The position numbers were made by a program, and so were the translations under genes. From NCBI RefSeq assembly GCF_004346685.1, contig NZ_SMCO01000001.1:1-64000 (forward strand): DNA of 64,000 nt. The letters are read 5' to 3'. Source of the DNA: Sulfurirhabdus autotrophica. Lineage in GTDB: Bacteria > Pseudomonadota > Gammaproteobacteria > Burkholderiales > SMCO01. The notes below the pieces were generated by a model. The model saw only the letters and a list, made by a program, of their open reading frames with translations, had not been told where the DNA came from and did no database searches. This document shows, piece after piece, positions 48,734 through 54,369 of this stretch (positions are counted from its first letter, which is position 1; every line of letters starts with the position of its first letter).

Positions 48734-50452
48734 TCAAATTTTAGCTGAGAGTTTGTTATAGGCAGTCAGTAGTTGCTGGTGCATATTGCACCCTTCCATC
48801 GACATACCAGGTGAATGCAAACCGAAGAAGCGTTGCTCTTTGTTCAGTAATGCTTTTGCTTGCACGAGTACTTCTGCACCATATAGCTGTTGTAAGGCAT
48901 GAGTAAATGGCGTTGCGTCTTCCAGGTTAAGCAGACTCTCTATGCAGCGATAAACACGCCGGCGGGGTTCTTTCAATTGTTCAAAATGACGAATCCAGTC
49001 GCAACCTTCACGGATTGATTCTTCATCACCGATTGCCAGAGCAAGCAGGGTTTTAAGTTCACCTACGCGCAACTCTTTCCATACTGAATCGGCATCCGGT
49101 GCAAGGCCGATCAGTCCGGCTACTGGGCGCTGGTCTGCAAGACCCAATTCGTTTAATGCGGCTAGCAAATCGGTGCATTCATCATCATCCAGATCGGTAA
49201 GGTGCAAAATGGGGGAGCGCAGATCATTACCAACGCTATTGTTTTCCCATTCCAGGTCATCTACCGGATAGATTTCTGACATGCCAGGCACGATAATTCG
49301 GCAAGCATAAACGCCCAGATGCGTAAAATCAGCAATGTAGATTTCTTTATTTTCGGCGTGAACACGTTCAACCAGCCAGGCATAATCTTCTTCGGTCGTA
49401 GTGCTGAAATTCCAGTCGCAAAACTCAAAATCAGGTGTATCACCCAGAAACTGCCAGCTGATAATGCCGCTGGAATCGACGAAGTGAATTTCCAGATTTT
49501 GTTGGTGGGCAATTTCATCCAGATCATGTCCCGGCTCTGGGAAGTCACCCAGTGCATCCAGGGCTCTGCCCTGGAGCAATTCAGTCAATGCGCGTTCTAA
49601 TGCGATTTCAAACCGCGGGTGTGCACCAAAGCTGGAAAAGCATCCCTGGTCATTCGGGTTAAGCAGCGTCACGTTCATTACAGGGTATTGGCCGCCCAAA
49701 GAGGCATCTTTGACGAGAATACCAAAGCCAGCAGCGCGTAGCGCGCGAACACCGGCTTCAATACGGGGAAAACGTGCAATCACAGCTTCCGGTACATCCG
49801 GCAGGCAAATACCTTCAGCAATGATGCGGAACTTGATTTGACGTTCGAAAATTTCTGATAACGCCTGGGTGCGTGCTTCTTTCGGTGTATTGCCTGCAGA
49901 CATGCCATTGCTGACGTATAGATTTCCGATAATATTCACCGGAAACCAAACCGTGGCACCGTCTCTCTCACGGGTGTAGGGGATAGCGCAAATGCCGCGA
50001 TCTATATTGCCGGAATTCAGATCAACCAGCATTTCGGCGTCGATCGTACCTTCAGGGTTGTAAAATTGGTGTAATTCCGGTGTAAGCAACTCAGTTGGCC
50101 ATTCGGTATTGTCACCCAGTTCAAACCACTGTTCTTGTGGATAATGGGTGTAATCGCGGTTCGCGATCTGTTCTCCCAGGTAATAGTGGGTCCAGAAGTA
50201 ATTGCAGCTCAAACGTTCAAAGTATTCACCCAGTGCGCTTGCTAGCGCCGCTTGCTTTGTAGCCCCCTTGCCATTGGTAAACATCAAGGGGCAATCTTTG
50301 TCGCGTATATGTACCGACCAGATACCTTCCACAGGATTCAGCCATGAACATTCCTCTATGTGAAAACCCAGTGTTTCCAGTTTTTGACTCATTGAGCTGA
50401 TGGAGGATTCAAGAGAGGCGTCTTTGCCTGCAATAAAACTTTCTGTTTGCAT
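48734..50452 (-). CDS. ycaO: YcaO protein (E. coli YcaO type)
   Basis: A 572-aa protein very close in layout to E. coli YcaO, beginning MQTESFIAGKDASLESSI. FTNGKGATKQAALASALGEYFERLS (about 59-82) holds the Glu/Arg ATP-binding motif of YcaO cyclodehydratase folds, and a TPR-like C-terminal region follows. E. coli YcaO is linked with RimO-dependent methylthiolation of ribosomal protein S12; no azole biosynthesis genes (dehydrogenase, precursor peptide) lie around it, so RiPP synthesis is unlikely. The frame opens at TTG 50515, but ATG 50452 fits the family start. Confidence 0.88.
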   Translation of the reverse strand: MQTESFIAGKDASLESSISSMSQKLETLGFHIEECSWLNPVEGIWSVHIRDKDCPLMFTNGKGATKQAALASALGEYFERLSCNYFWTHYYLGEQIANRDYTHYPQEQWFELGDNTEWPTELLTPELHQFYNPEGTIDAEMLVDLNSGNIDRGICAIPYTRERDGATVWFPVNIIGNLYVSNGMSAGNTPKEARTQALSEIFERQIKFRIIAEGICLPDVPEAVIARFPRIEAGVRALRAAGFGILVKDASLGGQYPVMNVTLLNPNDQGCFSSFGAHPRFEIALERALTELLQGRALDALGDFPEPGHDLDEIAHQQNLEIHFVDSSGIISWQFLGDTPDFEFCDWNFSTTTEEDYAWLVERVHAENKEIYIADFTHLGVYACRIIVPGMSEIYPVDDLEWENNSVGNDLRSPILHLTDLDDDECTDLLAALNELGLADQRPVAGLIGLAPDADSVWKELRVGELKTLLALAIGDEESIREGCDWIRHFEQLKEPRRRVYRCIESLLNLEDATPFTHALQQLYGAEVLVQAKALLNKEQRFFGLHSPGMSMEGCNMHQQLLTAYNKLSAKI

Positions 50453-50678
50453 CTGGGTACCTGTTATGAAGCGTAATGGATAATTTGGAGGTTTGCCTGT
50501 TTCAGGCTTTATCAAAGCAAGTAACCAGACTCGAATTCTGAAAGAAAGAATGGAAATGATTGCTATGGCGTTGTGTTTATAGCAGATTTTACCACTAATG
50601 GGCCATAAAGCCGAATCAATTAGTGAGGGCGATTCAAATGGAAAATGGTATTAAAAGTCGAACAAATGCTGGAGAAAA

Positions 50679-51998: not shown

Positions 51999-52541
51999 TT
52001 AATCTTTTTTATTTTTGGCCTTAGCCAGTTCTTTCAGCATCGCTTCCTGTTGGGCAAAGGAGGGGACTCGTGAAGGTGAAGTGGCCTGTTCAGAAAGGTT
52101 TATAGGTGTGTGGCCGCCACGTTCCTGTTCTTTGGTCTTCAGGTAGTCATCAAGGCCATCGTCGGTATAGCGGCCTTTAAAGTCTTTGGGGGCCGCACTG
52201 CCTTGCTTGAGATATACCTGCATGCGTATCTGTTTGTTCAAGCTGGCGATCCGGTCTTCAATCCAACGGATGTCGTATAAGGCAAAGCCGATCTGACCTG
52301 CTAAAATAACCAAGGCAGGCAGTTTGTGGCCTATAATAAAAAGAGTGACTATCGTCAACGTCAGTATTCGATAAATCCATGCGGTACGGGCATCGTTCAA
52401 ATAGGCTCGGTGCATCCCTGAAGGGAAGAGCAGTAGCCAACTGTTAGCTACCTTACGTTTCTTCATTAATTGTACTAATCTAAGATTTGCACTTTGCAAC
52501 CCTTGACCTTCCAGATCAAGATTTTTCCACGCTTCATGCAT
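51999..52541 (-). CDS. Hypothetical membrane protein (180 aa)
   Basis: Not recognised. Two hydrophobic stretches (about 55-75 and 77-92, RILTLTIVTLFIIGHKLPALVILAGQIG) form a hairpin. The N-terminus has an LLFPSGMHRAYLND piece resembling small TM2-type proteins, and the C-terminal half is charged and probably cytoplasmic. Divergent from the LysR gene. Confidence 0.5.
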   Translation of the reverse strand: MHEAWKNLDLEGQGLQSANLRLVQLMKKRKVANSWLLLFPSGMHRAYLNDARTAWIYRILTLTIVTLFIIGHKLPALVILAGQIGFALYDIRWIEDRIASLNKQIRMQVYLKQGSAAPKDFKGRYTDDGLDDYLKTKEQERGGHTPINLSEQATSPSRVPSFAQQEAMLKELAKAKNKKD

Positions 52542-52628: not shown

Positions 52629-53531
52629 ATGGCAGACCGCCGAATTCAAGTATTTCATACAGTAGCGAAACAACTCAGCTTTACCAAGGCAGCTGAGTTG
52701 TTATTCATGACCCAGCCTGCGGTGACCTTCCAGGTGAAACAACTGGAAGAGCATTTCAATACCCGTCTGTTTGAGCGTACGCATGGCAAAATCACCTTGA
52801 CCCATGCCGGGGAAGTTGCCCTGGAATACGCCGAAAAGATTCTGGAGCTTTCATCTGAAATGGAAACCCGTTTAGGAGAACTCACCGGGGAAATTAGCGG
52901 CAAACTAATGATTGGAGCAAGTACCACTATTGCTGAATATCTGTTGCCGCGTATTTTGGGTGAATTTAAAGAGAAATATCCGCAAGTAAAAGCCCATTTG
53001 ACTGTGGCCAATTCTGAAACCATTGAAAACAAGGTGGCAGATCACACACTGGATCTTGGTTTGATAGAAGCGCAATCTCATCATCCGATTCTGAATACAG
53101 ACTTGTGTTGCAATGACGAACTTGTGGTGATTTGCTCCCCTAATCATGAGTATGCAAAGTTTACATCGCTTACCGCGTTACAGCTTGCAGAGCAGCCTTA
53201 TGTCAGCCGCGAATTGGGGTCTGGCACCCGTGAAGTTATCGATGATTATTTCCGAAATGCAGGTGTGAATCCCGATGATTTGAATATTGCCATGGAAATG
53301 GGCAGCCGCGAGGCAATCAAAGGTGCGGTAGAAGCCGGACTAGGTATTGCAATTGTTTCAATCTCAACGGTAGTAAAAGAATTGAAGCTAGGCGATCTGG
53401 TAGCTATTCCGCTGGAGCCAAAAATGACGCGTGCATTGTCTTTGGTCTACGCAAATGAAAAGTTCCGCTCAAAACTGATGCAGGCTTTTCTGGATTTCGT
53501 TAAAACAACCAAGCTGAATAGAGTTAAATGA
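52629..53531 (+). CDS. LysR-family transcriptional regulator
   Basis: A 300-aa LTTR. The HTH is at about 4-63 (FHTVAKQLSFTKAAELLFMTQPAVTFQVKQLEEHFNTRLFER). The substrate-binding domain follows (LMIGASTTIAEYLLPRILGEFKEKYP; EAIKGAVEAGLGIAIVS). The pattern is of the CysB/CbbR/YeiE-like kind, which respond to small ligands. The intergenic gap with the 180-aa gene is short, so it may control that gene or the amidotransferase-like gene downstream; the target is not identified. Confidence 0.92.
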   Translation: MADRRIQVFHTVAKQLSFTKAAELLFMTQPAVTFQVKQLEEHFNTRLFERTHGKITLTHAGEVALEYAEKILELSSEMETRLGELTGEISGKLMIGASTTIAEYLLPRILGEFKEKYPQVKAHLTVANSETIENKVADHTLDLGLIEAQSHHPILNTDLCCNDELVVICSPNHEYAKFTSLTALQLAEQPYVSRELGSGTREVIDDYFRNAGVNPDDLNIAMEMGSREAIKGAVEAGLGIAIVSISTVVKELKLGDLVAIPLEPKMTRALSLVYANEKFRSKLMQAFLDFVKTTKLNRVK

Positions 53532-53610
53532 TCATTAAGTTAATTGCTCAACTGATCGTTTTCAGATCAGCAGTGGCAAACTTATTGCTTCGATGGAGTA
53601 CAGCAAGGTT

Positions 53611-54369
53611 ATGAAAAATTTTCTGGTTATACAGCATACATATGCAGAATTTCTAGGCCCGATTGAAAAACAATTGGAGTCTCGCGATATCGGGTTTTCT
53701 TATCAGCGTCCATTTACTGGTCAGGATATCCCTGGTAGCGCACTGCAATACGATTCGCTCTGGTTATTGGGTGGCGCTTTCCCCATCACGGATAAAGAAT
53801 CATGCCCCTGGTTAGACGATGAAATCCGATTGATTGGTGTGTTTAAACATGCAAAACGTCCCATTGTAGGGATAGGGTTTGGCGGACTGTTGGTGGCTCA
53901 ATACGAAGGGGGGGTGGCATCTGCCGAACCATTACATACAGCTTACTGGACTACAGCGCATAAGACAGAAGTGGGTAAGGATGATCCGCTTGCTAATGCG
54001 GTAGATGGTGTAAAAGTGCTTGTGATGTATAACGGCAAGGTAGATTTACCAAAAGGTATAGAACCCATTCTGGTTGATGATGAAGGCAATTGGCTGGCTA
54101 TTCGCCCGGATGAACTCACTTATGGCATATTGTTCCGCCCTGAAATCAAACCCGGCATGATTGAAGACATGATCATGGAAGCGAACCGACCTTTACCAGA
54201 GCACATCGGTACACTGCTTGGTGAAGCCCGAATGAACTGGAACGATATGCAAGTTACGATGGGTAAAGTAGCTGTAGCACTGGTTTCAGCCCTTGATTTA
54301 ATGAAAGAACGCCGCAAAATGCCAGTTTTCAGCTTAAACGTAGTCAGAACGGAAGATGAAAATTCATGA
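53611..54369 (+). CDS. Class I glutamine amidotransferase-like protein lacking triad residues
   Basis: A 252-aa protein of the GMP-synthase-like GATase1 fold (WLLGGAFPITDKESCPWLDDEIRLI; AKRPIVGIGFGGLLVAQ). In active members the nucleophile is Cys in a G-x-C-x-G elbow; here the corresponding residue is Gly89. The usual F-H-P-E carrying the catalytic His and Glu is FRPE, so Arg176 replaces His, with Glu178 kept. It therefore cannot hydrolyse glutamine in the standard way and is a likely pseudoenzyme. AAGG precedes the ATG at 53611; an ATG at 53593 is less likely. It overlaps the 114-aa gene by 4 nt. Confidence 0.8.
   Translation: MKNFLVIQHTYAEFLGPIEKQLESRDIGFSYQRPFTGQDIPGSALQYDSLWLLGGAFPITDKESCPWLDDEIRLIGVFKHAKRPIVGIGFGGLLVAQYEGGVASAEPLHTAYWTTAHKTEVGKDDPLANAVDGVKVLVMYNGKVDLPKGIEPILVDDEGNWLAIRPDELTYGILFRPEIKPGMIEDMIMEANRPLPEHIGTLLGEARMNWNDMQVTMGKVAVALVSALDLMKERRKMPVFSLNVVRTEDENS

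Follow-up and report, generated by a model that had tools for sequence, protein, structure and literature searches.

The sHdr pathway is a major route of sulfur oxidation in bacteria. The sHdr-LbpA lipoate-assembly cluster contains lipX, which excerpts of PMC10332631 describe as 'a putative glutamine amidotransferase' and place, in H. denitrificans, with lipS1-lipT-lipS2-slpl(AB). The equivalent of LipX is called 'GATase1' in the available part of PMC6067878, a paper that also confines the maturation genes of Proteobacteria strictly to the hdr-like gene operon. LipX is described as belonging to cofactor assembly in a figure legend of PMC11582611, and its role in LbpA lipoylation is put forward as a proposal in the corresponding excerpts of PMC10332631 and PMC11582611. 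A description of LipX as catalytically dead, or of an unlinked form, was not found in excerpts of the literature that included PMC10332631, PMC6067878, PMC10451225 and PMC11582611.

The window, the whole stretch of 64,000 nucleotides from Sulfurirhabdus autotrophica that was analysed, encodes at 53611-54369 (+ strand) a 252-aa protein that we name, together with its family, LipX2. An in-frame ATG lies upstream at 53593, and in the homologue alignment the first Met of the family aligns to 53611. In a phmmer search against solved structures, LipX2 matched 9xfs_A (E 8.5e-13). The AlphaFold2 model, built from a 23-sequence input, has a mean pLDDT of 86; its best Foldseek match is 8khs (DnfC; E 1.8e-14), and VIA-align superposes the model on 8khs with Z 27.4 and rmsd 2.3 over 226 residues. 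As modelled, LipX2 has the class-I glutamine amidotransferase (GATase) fold, shared across the whole domain with the stand-alone class-I GATases 8khs (DnfC), 1o1y (TM1158), 3m3p and 9xfs. For the window protein, Pfam searched with an E limit of 10 gave no PF00117 match, and the PF00117 gathering score was not reached; NCBIfam gave only PRK07053-type matches far under the cut-off. The Cys-His-Glu triad of functional class-I GATases, including the four structures above, is incomplete in LipX2, with both Cys and His replaced. The elbow residue is Gly89 (GIGFGG), where 9xfs_A, 1o1y and 3m3p have Cys in the phmmer alignments; Arg176 occupies the His position of the HPE motif, and Glu178 is retained. 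The same three positions had been named in the sequence-only reading, and both the phmmer alignments and the family alignment agree with it.

Homologues of LipX2 were collected from 60 relatives, from a genome-contig scan (35 loci) and from an order and a class sample. After removal of duplicate contigs (L002/L032, L006/L061, L031/L067 and L060/L077) and of sequences that were identical or partial, 55 distinct family sequences were counted. Gly89, Arg176 and Glu178 are each present in 55/55 of them and Lys180 in 54/55. Ordinary GATases from the same searches have Cys, His and Glu in 24/24 sequences read. Of the matches classed as ordinary GATases, residues were read in nine (L084-L092) out of 21 in the order sample (E<=1e-10) and in eight of the class sample (L121-L126, L152 and L153); L154 and L155 gave no match with the window protein. 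A conserved Cys column was sought among the 55 sequences and none was found. The highest count, 27/55 at residue 65, lies away from the elbow, and an alternative conserved Cys that would speak against the pseudoenzyme assignment was not seen. Nei-Gojobori omega ranges from 0.014 to 0.191 in nine close LipX2 pairs, and 56 columns are invariant in an alignment of 33 family sequences. Since the replacements are the same in all 55 sequences and omega is low, the catalytic loss is an old, selected trait and not decay. LipX2 is a pseudoenzyme family in which the absence of the catalytic residues is conserved and purifying selection acts, as the sequence-only reading had supposed for the single gene, and the alignment of homologues that it proposed gave the expected result at Gly89 and Arg176. 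Loss of Cys does not prove that all chemistry is gone.

Phylogenetic analysis placed LipX2 and LipX as sister clades against ordinary GATases (support 100/99). One LipX sequence is approximately 27-36% identical to LipX2. When two more LipX sequences and a third form, from genome G457 (locus L145), were added, the sHdr-linked clade was retained (100/100), and the third form joined the LipX side (96/89). The catalytic Cys is missing in LipX2, LipX and the third form alike, and the remaining triad positions differ. In LipX, the Cys is replaced by Gly in 8/8 sequences, the His is kept in 7/8 and replaced by Asn in 1/8, and the Glu is replaced by Gly, whereas LipX2 has Arg176 and Glu178; the two pockets may therefore bind different things. 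The third form has Glu at the elbow, keeps His and has Gln in place of Glu178; it adjoins hemL-like and DsrE-like ORFs (L145/L157; names by eye), and its genome carries sHdrC1. Nine residues, Q8, E19, F29, Y31, R33, E185, D186, M189 and E190, are found in 64/64 sHdr-linked sequences but in only 0 to 12 of the 24 ordinary GATases. From the alignment, these residues would point to a common surface or ligand.

The distribution of the LipX-type proteins was compared with that of sHdrC1. In the order sample (240 genomes), sHdrC1 (E<=1e-50) was detected in 21 genomes, and LipX2 (16 genomes; E<1e-100) and LipX (5 genomes; E 1e-22 to 1e-27) occur in the identical 21. The class sample (219 genomes) contains 14 genomes with sHdrC1 and 14 with a LipX-type protein, again identical sets, and so does the phylum sample (searches of 238 and 239 genomes), with four and four. 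A few genomes, G000 among them, occur in more than one sample; counted once each, 37 genomes carry sHdrC1, with LipX2 in 28, LipX in 8 and the third form in one. No LipX-type protein was found in sampled genomes without sHdrC1. The hit lists, with 42/240 genomes at E<=1e-10 (order) and 51/219 at E<=1e-15 (class), were otherwise made up of weaker amidotransferase matches, and those whose residues were read keep the triad. The order-sample co-occurrence with sHdrC1 gives a Fisher p of 1e-30, a value that overstates independence because the genomes are related and the samples phylogenetically structured. Within the order sample, families f6, f11, f46 and f48 each hold sHdr-positive and sHdr-negative members, and the gene follows sHdr inside each. 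In genus g46, the sHdr genome G089 has the order LysR-LipX2-P2, P2 being the 114-aa downstream gene; G045 has LysR-P2, the matched blocks on either side being 133 nt apart, and carries LipX inside its sHdr cluster; G202 and G232 have LysR-P2 and no sHdrC1. The latter two carry P2 and soxB without dsrA. The association of LipX2 with sHdr is strong, and LipX2 tracks the sHdr sulfur-oxidation system, not LysR or P2. Two other sulfur-oxidation genes were considered and rejected as partners. Dependence on rDsr does not fit the presence of dsrA in just 5/16 LipX2 genomes (42/224 others, 47/240 overall; Fisher p 0.32), and soxB, although present in 16/16, is also found in 99/224 others and is not a specific partner.

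The sHdr cluster of the window genome is located on contig C20, in the order DsrE-sHdrC1-B1-A-hyp-C2-B2-LbpA-DsrE-LbpA-LipS1-sLpl(AB)-LipT-LipS2, where we presume the names of B1, hyp and the initial DsrE from order and sequence. No LipX match was found in this cluster. The LipX2 gene lies on contig C1, away from the slpl(AB)/dsrE position typical of LipX, and in none of the genomes examined was it part of the sHdr cluster. The clusters of G046, G131 and G410 likewise have LipS1-sLpl(AB)-LipT-LipS2 and lack LipX. In LipX genomes, lipX adjoins slpl or lipS2 together with dsrE-shdrC1. The LipX genome G045 has the order LipS1-LipT-LipS2-sLpl(AB)-LipX-DsrE-sHdrC1, and at L007-L009 homologues with approximately 30-36% identity lie between sLpl(AB) or LipS2 and DsrE-sHdrC1. 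In the loci read, LipX adjoins sLpl(AB), LipS2 or DsrE genes and not a window-type LysR. At L080 and L082 (G058 and G210), LipX comes immediately after LipS2, and the sequence retrieved there contains no intervening sLpl(AB) match. The two forms belong to different sHdrC1 lineages, with LipX2-associated sHdrC1 69-74% and LipX-associated sHdrC1 80-100% identical to that of G045. LipX2 would be an exception to the operon rule given in the excerpts of PMC6067878.

Taken at a probability of roughly 70%, the best explanation of the sequence data is that LipX2 is a dead GATase fold and the counterpart of LipX, which would serve LbpA lipoylation or the sHdr-LbpA complex from a LysR-linked locus. LipX2 resembles a second version of LipX that has been relocated, and most economically it would fill the place of LipX in a second sHdr lineage. 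A putative binding role is likely. LipX2 would work by binding and not by glutamine hydrolysis; it may be a binding subunit or a scaffold, with either the sLpl(AB)/LipS1/LipS2 machinery or lipoyl-LbpA as its partner. The old glutamine pocket, with Arg176 at the His position, Glu178 and Lys180, may now accommodate a carboxylate or acyl ligand or serve as a partner surface.

Co-occurrence cannot separate LbpA lipoate assembly from the sHdr complex itself. One branch of this explanation is that LipX2 is a structural or sulfur-handling part of the sHdr-LbpA complex and takes no part in lipoate assembly. The exact co-occurrence of LipX-type proteins with sHdrC1 is consistent with it, and lipX immediately adjoins dsrE-shdrC1 in several LipX loci. 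However, lipX is found with lipS1-lipT-lipS2-slpl(AB) in G045 and, according to the excerpts of PMC10332631, in H. denitrificans, and LipX2 has no conserved Cys for sulfur carriage; we consider this branch possible but somewhat unlikely. A bolder extension, which we offer only as a speculation with the odds well against it, is that no sHdr-type sulfur oxidiser can do without a dead LipX/LipX2-clade amidotransferase. Octanoate, lipoate or the LbpA lipoyl arm would sit in the emptied pocket and be passed between sLpl(AB), LipS1/LipS2 and sHdr, and in one lineage LysR would tie cofactor assembly to sulfur sensing.

In the window, LipX2 is the middle gene of a LysR-LipX2-P2 array. The LysR-type regulator (52629..53531, + strand) is the first gene and ends 79 nt before LipX2; it scores 254.2 bits against NF040786 (selenium-metabolism LysR), marginally above the NCBIfam cut-off of 250. 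A simple scan of the intervening 79 nt (53532..53610) found no promoter-like or terminator-like match on the + strand, with matches no commoner than in shuffled sequences. In several other loci the LysR to LipX2 spacing is -4. P2 (54366..54710, + strand) encodes a 114-aa protein, and its start overlaps the LipX2 stop (ATGA; -4 spacing), so that both the adjacent LysR and the overlap described in the sequence-only reading are real features of the locus. Expression of LipX2 is probably coupled to the LysR gene of this operon-like array. P2 is predicted by its model to be all-helical, and its N-terminus weakly resembles DUF2281 (PF10047), with 20.1 bits under a 26.5-bit cut-off; DUF2281 was matched by 8/30 P2 members at E up to 0.01. 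Pfam gave nothing further for P2, and the fold search with the P2 model gave no match below E 3.7. Upstream of and divergent from LysR, a gene at 51999..52541 (- strand) encodes a 180-aa protein that appears, by eye, to be membrane-spanning. ORFs clustering with it recur upstream in many LipX2 loci, but this cluster mixes the gene with antisense ORFs. The crude ORF calls in GC-rich loci include antisense ORFs and served as leads only. A large ORF at 48734-50515 (- strand), near the locus, appears YcaO-domain-like by eye.

The genomic neighbourhood raises the alternative that LipX2 acts with LysR and P2 as a regulator that binds an effector: it would sense a metabolite in the old pocket and tune LysR. 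Among 41 LipX2 family loci, LysR was found in 37 and P2 in 38. The order LysR-LipX2-P2 is that of most loci, with -4 overlaps in several. Support also comes from genome G457, where a LysR 48% identical to that of the window (L156, 6699-7637) lies approximately 3 kb from the sHdr cluster and could regulate the sHdr genes. This regulator is surrounded by ORFs that are TusA- and rhodanese-like by eye. Because of its closeness to the sHdr cluster, the window-type LysR may regulate sulfur oxidation. Against this alternative, LysR adjoins P2 without LipX2 in eight loci (L146, L147, L149, L150, L151 and L158-L160), and thus LysR and P2 do not define LipX2; L148 has P2 and no LysR match. Four LipX2 loci with upstream flank (L003, L005, L051 and L074) show no adjacent LysR match. 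In a 59-row LysR tree, five LipX2-less loci are scattered among LipX2 loci of the same clade, with four changes in LipX2 presence, at least two of which are forced by well-supported branches. P2 was found in 12 of the 60 relatives, 6 of these without LipX2, and 3 of another 5 genomes, all sHdr-negative, also have it; an obligate LipX2-P2 pair was rejected on these counts. As for the wider distribution of P2, all 12 P2 genomes among the 60 relatives carry dsrA or sHdrC1, and P2 with LysR (L146-L151 and L158-L160) occurs in dsrA-positive, sHdr-negative relatives. The regulatory role that had been deduced from the LysR and 114-aa neighbours is not upheld, given the LysR-P2 loci without LipX2, the LipX2 loci without an adjacent LysR, the position of sister LipX beside sLpl(AB)/LipS2/DsrE and the tracking of sHdr by LipX-type proteins. 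We regard a partnership with LysR as unlikely.

It is less probable still that LipX2 catalyses a new reaction through other residues, e.g., as a hydrolase giving sLpl(AB) free octanoate. According to the excerpts of PMC10332631, sLpl(AB) takes only free octanoate or lipoate, and the invariance of Glu178 and Arg176 with near-invariant Lys180 would suit such an activity. However, the nucleophile position holds Gly in the LipX2 and LipX clades but Glu in the third form, and since the His and Glu positions differ between clades, no common catalytic set is visible. That LipX2 is a recently inactivated or decaying amidotransferase gene accounts for the lost catalytic residues but has a negligible chance of being correct in view of the identical replacements in 55/55 sequences, the low omega (0.01-0.19) and the invariant columns.

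LipX has so far been listed as a putative amidotransferase, and the clade to which it belongs is without the catalytic Cys. Annotation of the LipX2 family as glutamine amidotransferase is likely a misannotation. The gene at 53611-54369 belongs to an sHdr-linked, LipX-related pseudoenzyme family, and this membership replaces the regulatory interpretation. LipX-type proteins always occur with sHdr in the sampled genomes and exist in a form outside the cluster, which makes them a candidate for a component still missing from LbpA lipoylation or the sHdr system.
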